Source of the DNA: Kofleriaceae bacterium
GTDB lineage: Bacteria; Myxococcota_A; Polyangia; Haliangiales; Haliangiaceae
Reading direction: 5' to 3'
NCBI GenBank assembly: GCA_022842285.1
Contig: JALHPV010000017.1
Span: 1 to 46,691 of the forward strand
DNA length: 46,691 nucleotides
Shown: positions 3,044 to 11,135 of the stretch, piece by piece
How the letters are laid out: every line of letters begins with the position of its first letter
Position numbering within the stretch: the first letter of the stretch is position 1
Notes under the pieces: generated by a model
Told to the model about the DNA's origin: nothing
Databases searched by the model: none
Seen by the model: only the letters and a program-made list of their open reading frames with translations
Made by a program: the position numbers and the translations under genes

Positions 3044-4258
3044 CTACTCGGCGAACGGCGACCAGCGCCGGACCTGGTCCATGGTCGGGAAGCTGGGGAT
3101 GGCGGGCATCGACGGCAGCGTTCCTGGTAGCGACGGCAGCGACGGCATGAGCGGCATGCCGATCCCCGCATCCTCGAGCATGCGGCCGATCCGCGGCGCA
3201 TACGGGATATCGGGGAGCGTTGGCATCTGAAAGTCGGTCGGATCGGAGGTGTTCACCGGCAGGCCGGGCAAGCCCGTGTCGGCGTTCCCCGCGAAGCGGC
3301 GCATGTCGCGGCGCATGGCGTCGGGATCGCCCTCCTCGCGGGCCCGGTAGTCGGCGAGCATCCGGCGACTCCAGGCGACGCGCTGCGAGCTGTCACCGAT
3401 ATCGATGTCCTCGCCTGGCCGCGTGCGGTCGTTGAAGTTCGCGAAGCTCTCGCCGCCGGGGATCGGCGACACGAGGGCGGGCGAGATGGTGTCGAACACC
3501 TCGCGCGTGGCGGGGTCGCGGTCGTAGACGTTCTCCTGCGCGAAGATCGACTGCTCGTGGTGCAGGAGGGCTCCGTTCCCCGACCAGATGAGCTCCTGCG
3601 CGGCCTGGATGGCCGCCTCGTCGCCGCTGGCGCGGGCCGCCTCGAGAGCCGCCTGGCCCTCGGCGATCTGCTCCCAGCCCGCGAGCTGGGTGGCCGGCAG
3701 CTCGCCGCACTCGGCCGCTTCGCGCAGCGCCTCGATGCCTCCCTGCTGCATCGCGAGGTGTTGCCACATGAGGTCGTTGTAGATGCCGGCGTTGCCCTCC
3801 GCGAGGCGCGTTCCGAGCAGCTCCGTGTCGACGGCCCCGTTGATTCCATCTCCGATCGACGGCCCCAGGGGCGGCGACGGCATGAGGCCCGGTCCGATGG
3901 GGAGCGGAGCGTTCGTGGCCTGGACCCCCGCGATGCCGACACCGACGAGGTCGGACGCGTAGCTCGCCATCCCGGCCCACTTCATCGAGTCCGGATCGGA
4001 CAGGTACATGTTCGCGTACTGGCCGGTGATGAGGGTGTTGCGGATCCGCGGATCCATCGCGTTGAACTCCTCCTCGGAGCTCACGCCGATGCGCGCAAAG
4101 GCCTGCGCCCGGTACCGGTCACGAATGCTGCCTTCTCCACACGCGAGCGAGGCTGGCTGCGACGTGGGACCTTCCTCGAGCATCGAGACCGGGGTGGCGA
4201 GCATGTTCGGCGCCTGCCGCTCCCGGACCTCCTCTACCAGTGTGCCCATATGGTCCAT
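3044..4258 (-). CDS. Hypothetical protein, 404 aa, Pro-rich C-terminus
   Basis: Function unknown. There is no signal peptide and no clear membrane segment. The N-terminal 250 residues look like a folded helical domain with conserved-looking stretches: MKWAGMASYASDLVG, DLMWQHLAMQQGGIEAL and ALLHHEQSIF. This pattern weakly recalls DUF2515-type proteins; I would not transfer a name. The last 90 residues are low complexity, with repeated P-x-x-P (MPLMPSLPSLPG...). Internal ATG codons at residue 4 or 19 could be the true start. It ends 27 bases from the convergent 140-aa gene and begins 27 bases after the end of recF, so it may be transcribed with dnaN-recF. Confidence 0.65.
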   Translation of the reverse strand: MDHMGTLVEEVRERQAPNMLATPVSMLEEGPTSQPASLACGEGSIRDRYRAQAFARIGVSSEEEFNAMDPRIRNTLITGQYANMYLSDPDSMKWAGMASYASDLVGVGIAGVQATNAPLPIGPGLMPSPPLGPSIGDGINGAVDTELLGTRLAEGNAGIYNDLMWQHLAMQQGGIEALREAAECGELPATQLAGWEQIAEGQAALEAARASGDEAAIQAAQELIWSGNGALLHHEQSIFAQENVYDRDPATREVFDTISPALVSPIPGGESFANFNDRTRPGEDIDIGDSSQRVAWSRRMLADYRAREEGDPDAMRRDMRRFAGNADTGLPGLPVNTSDPTDFQMPTLPDIPYAPRIGRMLEDAGIGMPLMPSLPSLPGTLPSMPAIPSFPTMDQVRRWSPFAE

Positions 4259-4285: not shown

Positions 4286-5383
4286 TCAGGACTGGATCTG
4301 GCCGTTCTGAATGCGGAAGTCCGCGCGATCACGGGACAAGAGGACATGGCTCGCGGCCGTGGTGGTGATGAAGCACTGGCCGGCCAGGGTCGCGAGGTGG
4401 TCGAACAGGTATTCGTTGCGGGAGGGGTCCAGCTCGGACGAGACGTCGTCCAGCAGCAAGATCGGCGCGTCGCCATGGGTCGCGCCCAGCACGGTCAGCT
4501 CCGCCGTCTTCCACGCGAGCATGATGGCGCGCAGCTGCCCCTGGGACGCGAAGCTGCCCGCCTCGCGGCCCTCGAGCTCGAGGGTCACGTCGTCGCGGTG
4601 GGGCCCGAGCAGCGTGGATCCGACGGCGAGATCCCGGGCCCGGCCCTCGGCGAGCTGGCGCTCGATCGCAGCGGCCGGCACCCCGACCAGCTTCGATGCG
4701 TAGCGCGCCCCGGCGGCCAAGCCTGTCCGGGTGATCGCGGCGAAGGCCTGCGAGAGCTCGGGGCCCAGGCGCTCGAGGAAGCGCACGCGCGCCGCCACCA
4801 CCGTCTCCGCGAGCCGGGCGAGCTGGGCGTCGTACACGGCCAGCATGTCGGCGACCTGCCCCGGGTTGATGCGCCCCTCCCCGGCCTGCTTGAGCACGCT
4901 GTTGCGGCTTCGCAGGACCTTCTCGTAGTCGGCGGCCGTCCCGAGGTAGCTCGGATCGAGGTTGAAGACGCCCCGGTCCAGAAAGCGCCGCCGGTCCCCG
5001 GGCGCTCCCCGCGGCAAGGCGAGGTCCTCGGGCGTGAACACGACCACGTTGAACGCCCCGAAGTAGCGAGCGAGCGGCCGGGCGGCTTTGCCATCGAGCC
5101 GGACCCGCCGACCTCCCTGCCCCAGATCGACCTCGTACACGCGCACCAGGTCGTCCTTCTGCACCCGGGCCCCGAGCTTCGCCTCGGGCCGGCCAAAGGC
5201 GACCAGGTCGGCGAGGCGCGACGTCCGGAACGACCGCAGCGTGGCCACCACGAAGATGGCCTCGAGCAGGTTCGTCTTGCCCTGACCGTTGTCACCGACG
5301 AAGACGTTGAAGCGCTCGCGGGGCTCCAGCGTCAGCGGCGCCAGGTTGCGGATACCGTCCGCGACGAGCGCCAGGATCTTCAC
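4286..5383 (-). CDS. recF: DNA replication and repair protein RecF
   Basis: SMC-like ATPase that loads RecA on gapped DNA together with RecO and RecR. The 365 residues (family usually 355-375) begin with a GTG codon. The Walker A motif GDNGQGKT is at residues 30-37. A Walker B/D-loop segment LLLDDVSSELD lies near residue 310, and a signature-like segment (FASQGQLRAIMLA) precedes it. It lies 41 bases downstream of dnaN on the same strand, in the standard dnaA-dnaN-recF order, and is probably co-transcribed with dnaN. Confidence 0.96.
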   Translation of the reverse strand: MKILALVADGIRNLAPLTLEPRERFNVFVGDNGQGKTNLLEAIFVVATLRSFRTSRLADLVAFGRPEAKLGARVQKDDLVRVYEVDLGQGGRRVRLDGKAARPLARYFGAFNVVVFTPEDLALPRGAPGDRRRFLDRGVFNLDPSYLGTAADYEKVLRSRNSVLKQAGEGRINPGQVADMLAVYDAQLARLAETVVAARVRFLERLGPELSQAFAAITRTGLAAGARYASKLVGVPAAAIERQLAEGRARDLAVGSTLLGPHRDDVTLELEGREAGSFASQGQLRAIMLAWKTAELTVLGATHGDAPILLLDDVSSELDPSRNEYLFDHLATLAGQCFITTTAASHVLLSRDRADFRIQNGQIQS

Positions 5384-5424
5384 GCCAGTTCAGCCTTACG
5401 TCGTCGGCGAGGCCCGCAGGCTCG

Positions 5425-6522
5425 CTAGATTCGCATCGGCATGACGACACCGAGGTAGTCGTCGCCGGTCAGCGGGCGAATCAGGCCCGGGTCGAGCTCG
5501 CCGCCGAGGGACAGCGTGACCTGGTCAGAGGACATCTGGCCGAGCAGCTCGACGACGTACTTCGGGTTGAAGCCAATCGCGATGGCCTCGCCGTTGTACT
5601 CGGCATCCAGCTCCTCGCGGACCTCGCCCACGTCCGGGTTGTCGCTCGTGATGGTGATGCCGTTCGTGCTGGCGGCGACCTTCACGCCGCGCGTCTCCGA
5701 CGACATGAGCTGCGCCCGCTTCATGGCCTCGATGAACCGACCGCGGTCGACGGTGATGACCCGCTTGTGGTCCTTCGGGATGACCTGCTCGTAGGGCGGA
5801 AACTGGGCGTCGATGAGCTTCACGGCCAGCGCGATGTCATCGGCGACGAGGAACAGGTGCGGCGTCTTGATGGCGAGCTTGCACGTGCCGCCTGCCTCGA
5901 GCACGCGCCGGATCTCCGAGAGGCCCTTCTTCGGGATGATGATGCCCGCCGAGAGCTTGGGACCGTTCGGGATCGTGCGCTCGACCTTGCTCAGGCGATG
6001 GCCGTCCGTCGAGACCATGCGGCTCTTGCTGCCGTCACTCTCGAAGTACACGCCGTTCAGGTGGAAGCGCGTCTCGTCGTTGCAGACCGAGAACATGGTG
6101 CGCTCGATCATCTCGCGGAGGACGCCGCTCTCGACGGTGGAGTACTGGGCCTCGCGATGGTCGGGGACCTTCGGGAAGTCGCGGTCGGGCATGCCGACGA
6201 TGCGATAGGCCACCTTGCCGCTCTTGATCTCCGCCCAGTGGTTGTCCGCCTTCTTGAGCGAAACCTCGTCGCCCGGAGCGTTGCTCACGAGGTCGTACAG
6301 GTTCTTCGCTCCGAGGGTGATGCCACCGTCGCTCGCGTTCGTGCTCTTGAGCTCGGCGGTGAGCGAGACGTTCAAGTCTGTCGCGGCGACGAGGAGCTGA
6401 TTCTTCCCCTGCGTGCGAAGCAGGACGTTCGCGAGCATCGGCATCGTGCTCTTGCGGTCAGCGATGCCTGACGCGAGGCGCAGTCCGCGCAGGAACTCCT
6501 GCTTTGCGATCTTGAATTCCAT
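5425..6522 (-). CDS. dnaN: DNA polymerase III sliding clamp (beta)
   Basis: Ring-shaped processivity clamp of the replicative polymerase. The 365 residues are close to the 366 of E. coli and divide into three repeated clamp domains (N-terminal MEFKIAKQEFLRGL; C-terminal DYLGVVMPMRI, the usual M-P-M-R/K ending). The ATG at 6522 is preceded by GAGGGGACC, a good Shine-Dalgarno sequence. Its 5' region contains the candidate origin-unwinding element at 6554-6618, so clamp expression and origin activity share one intergenic region. Confidence 0.98.
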   Translation of the reverse strand: MEFKIAKQEFLRGLRLASGIADRKSTMPMLANVLLRTQGKNQLLVAATDLNVSLTAELKSTNASDGGITLGAKNLYDLVSNAPGDEVSLKKADNHWAEIKSGKVAYRIVGMPDRDFPKVPDHREAQYSTVESGVLREMIERTMFSVCNDETRFHLNGVYFESDGSKSRMVSTDGHRLSKVERTIPNGPKLSAGIIIPKKGLSEIRRVLEAGGTCKLAIKTPHLFLVADDIALAVKLIDAQFPPYEQVIPKDHKRVITVDRGRFIEAMKRAQLMSSETRGVKVAASTNGITITSDNPDVGEVREELDAEYNGEAIAIGFNPKYVVELLGQMSSDQVTLSLGGELDPGLIRPLTGDDYLGVVMPMRI

Positions 6523-6553
6523 GGTCCCCTCGTTCGCTCGTGCTCGGTCTGGA

Positions 6554-6618
6554 TCTTTAAGAGAAATAAGATCTTTGTAGAAGTAAGATCTAGTAGCAGC
6601 TGTGGATGCTGTGGGTAG
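6554..6618 (-). promoter_or_regulatory. Candidate oriC basal unwinding element: tandem DnaA boxes, TAG trio, AT-rich DUE
   Basis: Seen on the plus strand: two adjacent DnaA-box-like nonamers, TGTGGATGC (6601-6609) and TGTGGGTAG (6610-6618), each 7/9 to TGTGGATAA. Next to them is TAGTAGCAG (6591-6599), a run of trinucleotides like the DnaA-trio. Then come about 37 bases (6554-6590) with roughly 73% A+T, containing the near-repeat TAAGATCTTTGTAGAAG / TAAGATCTAGTAGCAG. The order box-box-trio-AT matches the basal unwinding system described for Bacillus subtilis oriC, which also lies between dnaA and dnaN. The assignment to strand opening is inference. Confidence 0.6.
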
Positions 6619-6708
6619 CGTTGTAACCGGCCGCTACGACACCGGGAGCGCCGAGGCTCGCTGTGCGCTCTGTCCGATCGTCTAGGCGAGGACGGTGTGC
6701 GGCGTAGA

Positions 6709-6717
6709 TGTGGACAA
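6709..6717 (-). promoter_or_regulatory. DnaA box-like site (8/9)
   Basis: The plus-strand sequence TGTGGACAA matches the DnaA box TGTGGATAA at 8 of 9 positions. It lies 67 bases from the dnaA stop side and about 90 bases from the tandem boxes, in the same intergenic region. Confidence 0.5.
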
Positions 6718-6783
6718 GTCCCGTCGGGGAATTCGTCCACCGAACGTCCACAGCTGGGAGCACAGACTTGTTCACGGGCCCGC

Positions 6784-8190
6784 TCACTTCAAAAACAGCC
6801 CTTCCACGGCGTGGATCTCGGACCGCAGCGAAGGCTCGTTCTTCACCTTCTCTTCGATCTTCTGGACGGCCGAGATGACGGTGGTGTGGTGCTTGCCGCC
6901 AAAGGCGCGGGCGAGGTCCGGGTAGCTGTCTTTGGTGTGGTGTCGCGCGAGGTACATGGCCACGGCGCGCGGGCTGGCGACGGACTTGTGGCGTCGCTCC
7001 GACTTGATGTCGGCTGGTTTCAGGCCGTAGTAGCCCGCCACGGCCTTGATGATGGTGTCGACGGTGATGATCTCCTTGGGGCGCGTGATCGCCGCTCCGA
7101 GCGTCTCCTGCGCGAATTCGAGGTCGATCTCGCGCTTGGACAGCGACGCGTAGGCGAAGAGGCGGATGAGCGCGCCCTCGAGCTCGCGGACGTTGCTCTT
7201 GATGGACGACGCGATGTAGAGCGCGACGTCGTTCGGCAGGTCCAGGCCCTCGACGGCGGCCTTCTTCATGAGGATCGCCATGCGGACCTCGAGCTCGGGC
7301 GGCTCGATGTCGGCGAGGAGGCCCCAGGCGAACCGCGTGCGCAGTCGGTCGGCGATGTCGGAGATCTCGTGCGGCTTGCGGTCGGCGGTCAGCACGATCT
7401 GCTTGTGCTGCTCGTGGAGCGCGTTGAACGTGTGGAAGAACTCGTCCTGCGTGGACTCCTTGCCGGCGAGGAACTGCACGTCGTCGACGAGGAGGACATC
7501 GATGCCCTCGCGGTAGTTCCGACGGAACTCGTGCATGCGGCCGGTGCGGACGGCCTGCACGTACTCGTTCATGAAGCGCTCGCTCGAGATGTAGACGATG
7601 CGCGAGCCCGGCCGGTTGATGAGCTGTGTGTGACCGATGGCGTGGAGCAGGTGGGTCTTGCCGAGGCCGACGCCACCGCAGACGAAGACAGGGTTGTACT
7701 TGGGTGGGTACGACGAGGCGGCGGCCTGCGAGGCCGCGAAGGCGAGCTGGTTCGACGGACCGGCGACGAACGTCTCGAAGACGTAGCGCGGGTTGAGCGT
7801 CGCGGACTCGGGCGGCGCGATCTCGATCTCCTGCGGGGGCGCCTGCTTGATGACGGCGGCCGCGGTGACGATCTCGGGCGGTGGGGCGGCGATGGGCATG
7901 TCCATGGAGCTGGCGGCGATGGGCTCGGGGGGCTCCAGAAGGTCGGCGCTCGGGCCGTCCGGCTCGAACTCGACCGTGATGTGCTGGCCGAGGTCCTCGA
8001 GGTCGGCCTTCAGGTGGGCCAGGAAGTGCGTCTGGAACCAGTTGCGGACGTACTCGTTGGGGGCACGGAGGCGCAGGGTGCTGCCATCGAACGAGGTCAT
8101 CTCGATGGGCCGAAGCCACATGTCGAAGTACTGCGGCGATACGCGCGTGCGGAGCCGGTCGACTGCTTCATCCCAGATCTGTTGGGTCAT
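6784..8190 (-). CDS. dnaA: Chromosomal replication initiator DnaA
   Basis: AAA+ initiator that binds DnaA boxes, opens oriC and loads the helicase. The 468 residues show domain I (IWDEAVDRLRTRVSPQYFDMWLRPIE), a Pro/Ala/Glu-rich linker at about 80-130, and an AAA+ core with Walker A GGVGLGKT at 172-179 and Walker B VLLVDDVQF at 232-240. Domain IV carries the DnaA signature around SPRAVAMYLARHHTKDSYPDLA and GGKHHTTV. ATG at 8190 is preceded by GCAGGACAA, a short-spaced Shine-Dalgarno-like sequence. DnaA boxes lie on both sides of the gene, so autoregulation is likely. Its order relative to dnaN, recF and gyrB is the classic one, inverted relative to the window. Confidence 0.98.
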   Translation of the reverse strand: MTQQIWDEAVDRLRTRVSPQYFDMWLRPIEMTSFDGSTLRLRAPNEYVRNWFQTHFLAHLKADLEDLGQHITVEFEPDGPSADLLEPPEPIAASSMDMPIAAPPPEIVTAAAVIKQAPPQEIEIAPPESATLNPRYVFETFVAGPSNQLAFAASQAAASSYPPKYNPVFVCGGVGLGKTHLLHAIGHTQLINRPGSRIVYISSERFMNEYVQAVRTGRMHEFRRNYREGIDVLLVDDVQFLAGKESTQDEFFHTFNALHEQHKQIVLTADRKPHEISDIADRLRTRFAWGLLADIEPPELEVRMAILMKKAAVEGLDLPNDVALYIASSIKSNVRELEGALIRLFAYASLSKREIDLEFAQETLGAAITRPKEIITVDTIIKAVAGYYGLKPADIKSERRHKSVASPRAVAMYLARHHTKDSYPDLARAFGGKHHTTVISAVQKIEEKVKNEPSLRSEIHAVEGLFLK

Positions 8191-8254
8191 TTGTCCTGCG
8201 GTATCGAGTGGTTGGAAGCGTCAGTCCACAGACAAAGGAAAGCTATTCCAGAGG

Positions 8255-8263
8255 TTATCCACA
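8255..8263 (+). promoter_or_regulatory. DnaA box (perfect TTATCCACA)
   Basis: Exact match to the DnaA box consensus TTATCCACA, 64 bases upstream of the dnaA start. It has the same orientation as the box at 8310, with 46 bases between them. Confidence 0.85.
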
Positions 8264-8309
8264 AGGATCCCTGGTCCCCTCCCCGGCCCGCGAATCGAAG
8301 CCGTCAGGC

Positions 8310-8318
8310 TTATCCACA
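8310..8318 (+). promoter_or_regulatory. DnaA box (perfect TTATCCACA)
   Basis: Second exact TTATCCACA in direct orientation with the first. Two perfect copies within 64 bases in a GC-rich genome, next to dnaA, strongly support this region as part of oriC. Confidence 0.85.
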
Positions 8319-8475
8319 GGCAGGAAGTTCAGGCTTGGTAACAGAACGCGATTTCACCCCGCAAGCAGAAACCATCGCCAAATGAACTCCGGAAACCTCG
8401 TCGAAAACGGACCGCTAAATGGGCTGCGAAACGACGCCGGAGAACCTCGTAGAGCAGACGCGGGCGCCGAGCTTC

Positions 8476-8504
8476 TTGACAGGTGGGAGGCACACGAGTA
8501 TCGA
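8476..8504 (+). promoter_or_regulatory. Candidate rpmH promoter
   Basis: TTGACA at 8476-8481 is a perfect -35 box, followed after 17 bases by TATCGA at 8499-8504 as a weaker -10. It lies about 25 bases before the rpmH start, leaving room for the GAGGAG ribosome binding site at 8517-8522. Confidence 0.55.
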
Positions 8505-8528
8505 TCCCCCTCCGCCGAGGAGTGACCT

Positions 8529-8681
8529 GTGTCGAAGCGTACCTATCAGCCCCACAATAAGAGCCGGAAGCGCACCCACGGTTTCCGCGCCCGTAAGAAG
8601 ACCCGCGGGGGCCGCGAGGTTCTGCGTCGCCGCCGCGCCAAGGGGCGCAAGCGCATCTCGGTGACGGCTGCCAAGAAGTGA
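8529..8681 (+). CDS. rpmH: 50S ribosomal protein L34
   Basis: Small basic protein of the large ribosomal subunit. The gene encodes 50 residues from a GTG start: [18 protein letters not shown], then [23 protein letters not shown], the diagnostic L34 sequence. GAGGAG at 8517-8522 is well spaced from the GTG. It opens the plus-strand origin module. Its TGA overlaps the GTG of rnpA (GTGA), so the two are translationally coupled. Confidence 0.97.
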
Positions 8682-9049
8682 GTTTGGCGGCGAGGCCATC
8701 GCTTGGAATCTCCAAGGCGATGCGGCTGCGACAACGCGCCGAGTTCCTCGCTGTCCAATCCAGTGGCATCAAGCTGCACGGACGCCATGTCCTCGCGATC
8801 GCCAAGCGTCGTGAGGACAGCGGCGCCGTCGGTCGCCTCGGAATCACCGTGACCAAGAAGGTCGGCAATTCGCCTGTCCGCAATCGCATCCGCCGCGTGA
8901 TCCGCGAGTGGTTGCGGCTGCATGGCTGGGTGCCGGCCGGCTGGGATCTCGTTGTGGTTGCCAAGGAGAGTGCGGCGCGGCAGGTTGCATCCGAAACGTT
9001 CGCAACCGACCTGGCGCGCGTGCAGCGCGAGCTCCTGGCGACTCCATGA
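8678..9049 (+). CDS. rnpA: Ribonuclease P protein component
   Basis: Protein subunit of RNase P, which matures the 5' ends of tRNAs. The 123 residues contain the family core [13 protein letters not shown] and the RNR motif with its surroundings ([21 protein letters not shown]). The GTG at 8678 overlaps the rpmH stop; the ATG at 8720 would remove the first 14 residues and is a possible alternative. Its TGA overlaps the ATG of yidD. Confidence 0.95.
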
Positions 9050-9315
9050 TCCTGTTCAAGGCGATTCACCGCGCAGTCGTATGGCTCGTCCTTGCGCCGG
9101 TGGTCGTCTATCGCAAAGTTCTCTCCCCGATGAAGACGGTACCCACGTGTCGGTTCCTGCCGACGTGCTCGGAGTACGCGCTCGAAGCGGTGAAGACGCG
9201 CGGAATTGTCGTCGGCGGCGCGCTCGCTACGTGGCGCGTCTGTCGGTGCAACCCATTCGGCGGTAGCGGATTCGATCCGGTCCCGCACGGCCCGGCCCGG
9301 GAAGGCGTGCACTGA
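9046..9315 (+). CDS. yidD: Membrane protein insertion efficiency factor YidD
   Basis: Small membrane-associated protein thought to assist YidC-mediated insertion. The 89 residues have an amphipathic/hydrophobic N-terminus ([28 protein letters not shown]) and the family signature with Cys residues: TCRFLPTCSEYALEAV and WRVCRCNPFGGSGFDPVP. ATG at 9046 overlaps the rnpA stop (ATGA), and its own TGA overlaps the yidC ATG by one base (TGATG). Confidence 0.95.
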   Translation: MILFKAIHRAVVWLVLAPVVVYRKVLSPMKTVPTCRFLPTCSEYALEAVKTRGIVVGGALATWRVCRCNPFGGSGFDPVPHGPAREGVH

Positions 9316-11135
9316 TGGAAGGCCAAGGCAAACGGCTCCTGCTCGCGGTGGCACTCGCGCTCGGCGTGATGCTCGCGTGGAACATGCTCTTCCCGTCGAA
9401 GGAAGAGCCGAAGAAGAAGCCCGTCGCCACGGCGACCGGCAGCGGCTCGGGCTCGGGCTCGGGCGCGACCGGAGTGGACGCGAAGGCCCCCGTCGAGGTG
9501 GGCGCGCCCTGCGTCGGCGAAGAGATCGCGTTCCCGTTCGAGAAGAAGTTCACCGCGACCCTCTCGGAGTGCGGCGCCGCGCTCGTCGGCTGGCAGCTCG
9601 CGGATCCGCGCTTTGCCGGTGATGCCACGAAGGGTCAGCTCCTCGCGTACGGCATTCCCGACGCGGGCAGCTTCCTCATCAGCTTCCCGCGGTCGCAGAT
9701 CGATGTCTCGCACCGCGAGAAGTGGACGCTCGTGTCCCGCACGGACACGGAGGCGGTCTTCTCGCTGACGACGCCGTACCTCGAGCTGAAGAAGACCTAC
9801 ACGTTCGCCCCCGCCAACTACCTCGTTCGGATGAACGTGGCGGTGAAGGCGACGAAGGTCGCGTCGGATCAGACGGTCGCAGTCTCGGTCTTCGCGTTCC
9901 AGAATCCGAAGGCGGACGTCGAGGGTAGCAGCCAGATCGCGGCGCGCGCGTGGTCGTCATCGACGCTGCGCTCCGACGGCGAGCACACCGTCGCGACGAA
10001 CCTCAAGGACCTGATCGTCTCCGCGCGGCACGAGCCCGCCATTCGCTTCACCGGCTTCGAACACCCGTATCTCCTCGCGGCCTACGCCCCGAAGCGCGAC
10101 GGCAAGACGGTCGAGAAGTGGTCCTACGCGATCCAGCCGGAAGGCTTGATGCGTACGGATATCGTCTTCCCGTCGGAGAAGCTCGAGGTTGGCGCCGTCC
10201 TGAACCGCGAGGTGGTCGCCTACCTCGGCCCGCGGCTCTACAAGGAGCTCCAGGCCGCCGAGGCGATCACCGGGTTCTCGCCGGGCCCGGGCTTCCACAC
10301 GATCGTCGACTGGGGCTGGTTCGGCATCATCGGCCGCCCGCTCCACTGGCTGCTGCTCCAGCTCCAGGGGCTCGTCGGCAACTGGGGCCTCGCGATCATG
10401 CTCCTGACGTTCATCGTCAAGCTCGTCACGCTCTACCCGGTCACCCGGTCGATGCGCTCGATGAAGGCGATGGCCGCGCTCGCTCCGAAGATGAAGGAGC
10501 TGCAGGAGAAGTACAAGGACGACAAGCAGCGCCAGCAGGCCGAGACCATGGCGCTCTACAAGCAGCACGGCGTGAACCCGATCGCGGGTTGCCTCCCGAT
10601 GCTGATGCAGATGCCGGTGTGGGTCGCCCTCTACCGCATGCTCTCGAACGCGGGCGAGCTGTACCGCGAGCCGTTCATCAACGGGTGGATCTCCGATCTC
10701 ACCGCGCCGGACCCGTATCACATCCTGCCGGTGGTCCTGACGGTGACGATGTTCATCCAGGCGCGTCTGACGCCGGCCACCGGCACGTCCGGTCAGCAGA
10801 AGATGCTGCAGTACGGCATGCCGCTCGGCTTCGGTGTGATGTCGTTCTTCTTCCCCGCCGGGCTGACGATCTACATCTTCACGAACACCGTCCTCGGTGC
10901 CCTGCACTCGATCTACATGAACAAGTACGACCGCAAGTCGAAGGAGCTCGTCGCCAAGATGCAGGCGGGGATGGCCGCGACGGTCGAGAGCAAGGACAAG
11001 GAAGCGAAGAAGTCGGCCGCGAAGCCGGTCATCGATGCCGAGGCGGTCGAGAAGACGGCCCCTGCCGATGCAGACGCGCCCAAGCCCAAGCGCCCGAATG
11101 CGGGTGGCGGCGGCTCGAAGAAGAAGCGGCGCTAG
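9315..11135 (+). CDS. yidC: Membrane protein insertase YidC
   Basis: Inner-membrane insertase (Oxa1 family), acting with or without SecYEG. The 606 residues start with a membrane anchor ([20 protein letters not shown]). A Gly/Ser linker and a large periplasmic beta domain (about 70-330) follow, then the conserved helical core: [31 protein letters not shown] with the groove arginine, [19 protein letters not shown], and [14 protein letters not shown]. The tail is Lys-rich. This long form with a periplasmic domain is typical of Gram-negative bacteria, so the cell has an outer membrane. Confidence 0.97.

Follow-up and report, generated by a model that had tools for sequence, protein, structure and literature searches.

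The window analysed here (the whole 46.7-kb stretch) corresponds to contig C17 of a draft genome that totals 7.9 Mb and is split into 550 contigs. Its minus strand carries, in this order, dnaA, a gap of 261 bp, dnaN, recF and, farther along, gyrB, and a gene for a DUF2515 protein lies between recF and gyrB (3044-4258). On the plus strand, divergent from dnaA, are rpmH (recognized by hand translation) and yidC. An Rfam search of 5300-9400 gave no match. The description of the genome as myxobacterium-like agrees with a DnaA tree, in which Sorangium and Minicystis group with f14, a family of the class to which the window belongs. Coordinates of the features are collected in the table.

Features of the dnaA-dnaN region, with position in the window, strand and remarks
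Feature	Position	Strand	Remarks
dnaN	5425..6522	-	365 aa; three DNA_pol3_beta domains
A/T-rich region	6553..6577		within the least stable DNA of the window
AGATCT	6569..6574		kept in nearly all genus members
Four trios in shifted register (from the boxes 3'-TAG AAT GAA GAT-5')	6578..6589	+	minus strand ATC TTA CTT CTA
One-base register slip separating the two trio blocks	6590		minus-strand G
DnaA-trios 1 and 2, TAG TAG (3'-GAT GAT-5' from the boxes)	6591..6596	+	minus strand CTACTA
GC-rich spacer GCTG	6597..6600	-	contains the CAG originally taken as a trio
Proximal DnaA box GCATCCACA	6601..6609	-	2 mismatches to TTATCCACA; abuts the distal box, same orientation
Distal DnaA box CTACCCACA	6610..6618	-	2 mismatches to TTATCCACA
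Single DnaA box TTGTCCACA	6709..6717	-	1 mismatch; 1.93 bits per column, the most conserved part of the gap
dnaA	6784..8190	-	468 aa; Bac_DnaA, Bac_DnaA_C and DnaA_N above Pfam cut-offs; initiator-specific motif
Perfect DnaA box upstream of dnaA	8255..8263	+	inside a conserved dyad
Perfect DnaA box upstream of dnaA	8310..8318	+	conserved in the genus
Dam-family methylase	G000:C222:10067-10864		outside the window

Along the minus strand, the dnaA-dnaN gap has a pair of DnaA boxes that abut each other, followed by a GC-rich spacer of 4 nt, DnaA-trios and A/T-rich DNA; the last part of the gap, written in the sense of dnaA, is CTACCCACA-GCATCCACA-GCTG-CTA-CTA-G-ATC-TTA-CTT-CTA-CAAAGATCTTATTTCTCTTAAAGATC. 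Both the abutting DnaA-box-like nonamers and the A/T-rich stretch of about 37 bases described in the original prediction are present, the latter with 27 A+T among the 37 positions 6554-6590 and overlapping the minimum of duplex stability (of all 41-bp windows in the 46.7 kb, those starting at 6546-6560 are the least stable). The two perfect boxes that had been noted on the other side of dnaA were likewise found; the window has no other perfect boxes, and these two are conserved in the genus, so that two box clusters flank dnaA, the upstream pair and those in the dnaA-dnaN gap. A dyad, CCAGARG-N13-CYTCTGG (8248-8274), surrounds one of the upstream boxes, with 98.9% of cells pairing in 13 genomes (G-U pairs included) and with both partners of one pair replaced in five genomes; it may form a hairpin in the dnaA leader or serve as a dimeric operator.

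By the rules of the 2021 survey (PMC8287927), the basal unwinding system (BUS) is recognized by a DnaA box with at most two mismatches to TTATCCACA, a tandem, co-oriented second box with at most four, and three or more 3'-NAN-5' trios no farther than 16 bp from a box. In the window, the two boxes lie abutting on the same strand with two mismatches each, TAG TAG CAG with a 1-nt spacer passes the loose rule as worded there, and the adjoining A/T-rich DNA includes the least stable 41 bp of the 46.7 kb. The base-capture residues of B. subtilis DnaA have been defined (PMC10721633); Glu183, Asn187 and Arg202 (B. subtilis numbering) are identical in the DnaA of the window, its pocket has Val for Ile at 190 and 193, and position 196 differs.

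When the gaps of relatives are aligned, the same order and spacing are found, with trios, in nearly all relatives in the family, and the order and spacing recur in most families of the class, which bears out the proposed box, DnaA-trio and A/T-rich arrangement of B. subtilis at the same location. Within the genus, the boxes reach 1.40 bits per column, the trios 1.31 and the A/T region 1.25, with 0.81-0.82 in the neighbouring gap. The distal box of relatives is mostly nTATCCACA or TTAnCCACA. Their spacer is in most cases GGAC, GGCC, GCAC or similar and covers the position of the CAG, and the conserved trios are therefore TAG TAG, the slip and four more trios; of the trio array as first read, TAG TAG is conserved but the CAG falls in the relatives' spacer, which shifts the trio count. 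Counted from the conserved spacer, the array of the window consists of two trios and a central-T triplet, after which four trios follow in register +1. An array of two to four trios followed by a +1 run of three or four is seen directly in 8 of the 12 listed genus members (window included), and a ninth, G010, has a similar break once a spacer shorter by one base is allowed for. In genus g5 of the same family, most arrays have six to nine trios in a single register. Three trios are needed in B. subtilis, and at the conserved 4-nt spacer only two uninterrupted trios precede the central-T triplet (GAT); judged from the sequence, three are reached only by counting the CAG or by allowing the one-base slip. 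The 17-base near-repeat that had been pointed out in the A/T-rich DNA exists in the window's genome but is absent as a conserved repeat in relatives: its first copy derives from trio-3 sequence peculiar to this genome, and relatives lack AGATCT there, keeping only the second AGATCT (6569-6574).

The element also stands out against chance. A position profile was trained solely on 18 Bacillota origins, none close to the window; these, and the gammaproteobacterial controls, were taken from the scan for relatives and are mostly distant genera among the matches listed. With this profile the element is the top-scoring place in the window (13.1 bits), followed by shifted versions of itself (11.2 and 7.8) and by a single other place (0.7), and all remaining scores are -6.5 or lower. 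The score of the element is reached once when the gap is dinucleotide-shuffled 3000 times. Among the 29 gaps long enough for the shuffle comparison (window included), the real gap outscored at least 199 of 200 shuffles in 26, with the top-scoring place differing from the aligned element in at least one of these (L005); the exceptions are L018 and L019 (spacer one base shorter) and L033 (dnaA no longer beside dnaN). The 23-nt core pattern CCACANNNTCCACANNNNCTNCT has a single match in the 7.9-Mb genome, which is this site. Gammaproteobacterial origins lie outside the dnaA-dnaN gap, and gammaproteobacterial gaps gave no hits or weak scores, the best being 3.5 (L129).

Compared with the incC/BUS of B. 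subtilis (DnaA-boxes 6 and 7), the element shares its location in the dnaA-dnaN gap, a tandem pair of boxes in one orientation, a GC-rich spacer of 4 nt, 3'-GAT GAT-5' as the first trios and an A/T-rich region on the dnaN side; the Bacillus relatives read CTACTAGTACTTCTAC where the window reads CTACTAG-ATCT-TACTTCTAC. It differs in that the box pair is offset by 9 nt instead of 8, with both boxes two mismatches off, in that the trio run is broken after two by the central-T triplet and the one-base slip, and in the conserved AGATCT of its A/T region. In the B. subtilis model, as outlined in two papers (PMC8287927, PMC10721633), DnaA on the tandem boxes proceeds to the trio strand, captures bases in twos, and the A/T-rich DNA opens. 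By analogy, DnaA would bind the two co-oriented boxes at 6618-6601 as double-stranded DNA, a DnaA-ATP filament would load across the 4-bp spacer onto the trio-bearing plus strand, neighbouring pairs of protomers would each capture two bases of one trio, and the weak A/T stretch would then open towards dnaN for helicase loading. The steps of loading, capture and opening in this outline are borrowed from B. subtilis; the sequence, order, spacing and conservation of the element, the DnaA residues and the skew minimum of a relative come from the present analysis.

GC skew of the window alone (46.7 kb of the 550-contig draft) does not locate the origin, which is thus not placed by skew in this genome, and contig C12 of G019 gave no usable skew signal. 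The informative case is G017, a member of the same family in which dnaA (586-588 kb) and dnaN (69 kb) lie 517 kb apart on one 683-kb contig (C10; loci L161, L033, L165-L199), a separation to be read with the draft state of this genome and its estimated contamination of 7% in mind. The element, TCATCCACATATCCAATGGTCCTACTTCTAATACTACTAAATT, is found at 69,037, just upstream of dnaN and recF, and yidC and two upstream boxes remain with dnaA. The cumulative GC skew reaches its minimum at 66,937, at a distance of 2.1 kb from the element, and passes the dnaA locus without switching, so that it points to the element beside dnaN rather than to the boxes upstream of dnaA. G017 provides a test beyond the single genome: dnaA moved away, and dnaN kept both the element and the skew minimum. 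With the relatives, the Bacillota profile and the skew of this split relative in agreement on a B. subtilis-type element for unwinding the origin, the dnaA-dnaN gap very probably holds the BUS of this chromosome's origin. The BUS is a known device, and the window is a further, well-supported example with a small variant, the trio slip. A literature search gave no paper joining the BUS or DnaA-trios with myxobacteria, a lineage in which the BUS is now detailed; the survey of 2021 (PMC8287927), which covered 2070 species, may contain some.

Three other readings were weighed. In a bipartite oriC, such as that of B. subtilis or H. pylori, dnaA is flanked by a box cluster on either side, and the window resembles it in having conserved boxes both upstream of dnaA and within the gap. 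It might accordingly be supposed that the rpmH-dnaA region is the origin, or that the two regions make up a bipartite oriC of which both are obligatory, so that the element beside dnaN would not be an origin by itself. The two perfect, genus-conserved boxes upstream of dnaA, like incAB in B. subtilis, and the weakness of the first boxes of the BUS here favour this, but in G017 the upstream boxes are 517 kb away with dnaA and the skew minimum is at the BUS beside dnaN, which makes a requirement for two clusters doubtful, and the upstream region is absent from the 15 least stable windows. We consider such an upstream or obligatory bipartite origin unlikely.

A little less likely still is that the region is the promoter or leader of dnaN, its boxes merely regulating dnaN or titrating DnaA, with the origin elsewhere. 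It lies directly 5' of dnaN, is A/T-rich like promoters, and is retained with dnaN in G017. Yet a scan of 6500-8550 limited to sigma-70-like promoters found none, the order of box, box, spacer and trios is that of Bacillota origins, the arrangement is found again across the class, where 82% of trio centres are A or C vs 27-35% in the other two registers, and the skew minimum of G017 lies close to the element. The least probable alternative is an origin control of the E. coli type, in which GATC sites of the A/T region would be Dam-methylated and timed by hemimethylation: a Dam-family methylase above the curated cut-off is encoded in 26 of the 28 genomes of the family (that of the window among them) and in 80 of 124 class genomes, and GATC is found 61 times against 18 expected beside the family's boxes, but it is equally enriched in class genomes lacking Dam (57 found for 18 expected, and 1.6 per genome against 1.7), and no SeqA turned up in any of the 28 family genomes in a search that detected the E. 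coli control. Sequestration of GATC of the Dam/SeqA type was consequently rejected, the enrichment being independent of Dam and the family without SeqA.

GATC and AGATCT are enriched beside the trios, and AGATCT is a single-strand DnaA site of E. coli according to a 2015 review (PMC4285127). The presence of AGATCT in unstable DNA beside a DnaA box is a likeness to the 13-mers of E. coli oriC and their single-stranded ATP-DnaA hexamers; unlike E. coli, the family has no SeqA, its GATC enrichment is unlinked to Dam, and the probable origin lies beside dnaN.

In trios 1-5 of 90 distinct arrays from the class, the centre is A in 57%, C in 26%, G in 14% and T in 3%, percentages in which genomes inside a family are not independent and for which the box was chosen by a scanner favouring regular triplets, with some boxes and spacers set by hand. 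The register was set by the 4-nt spacer (3 nt in ten genomes, set by eye), and the other two registers have A or C at the centre in 35% and 27%. In B. subtilis, a central C is nearly as good as A, and G or T is worse (PMC10721633). The class agrees with this tolerance of A and C, an agreement that was not sought beforehand: A and C are common, G is rarer and T very rare, as the B. subtilis biochemistry predicts. This is the most interesting by-product of the analysis and a pattern worth testing.

Central-C or mixed A/C arrays (3'-GCT-5', CGA in the sense direction) in the canonical register occur in f10, f14, f16 and f24 (examples are L238-L248, L249, L253, L255 and L275-L292). The arrays of f16 and f24 are TTA AGA CGA CGA CGA, those of f10 are xGA for the most part, TCA being their trio 2, and those of f14 mix CTA and CGA at the same positions, with trio 4 having 47% A and 47% C. 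A switch of the trio strand in some families was considered and dropped in favour of the simpler reading of the same register with a central C, which is preferred since mixed arrays like CTA CGA CGA CGA and CTA CTA CGA CGA keep the spacer and the register, and DnaA keeps Asn187. It is reasonably probable that the origins of the class keep the register of box, spacer and trios and swap the trio centre between A and C by family (with one family mixed), as if DnaA reads the shared amino group, and that the genus of the window adds a tolerated one-base slip.

No recognizable unwinding element was found upstream of dnaN in f8 and f11 (L049-L053, L293-L296), and the origin of these families may lie elsewhere than in that region. 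The 13.2-Mb genome of G127 has central-C trios and dnaN at 12.49 Mb. Within a stretch of 400 kb, its cumulative skew reaches a minimum some 85 kb from dnaN, and the skew switches the other way at 5.6-6.2 Mb, on the far side of the chromosome, which fits an origin in the neighbourhood of dnaN.
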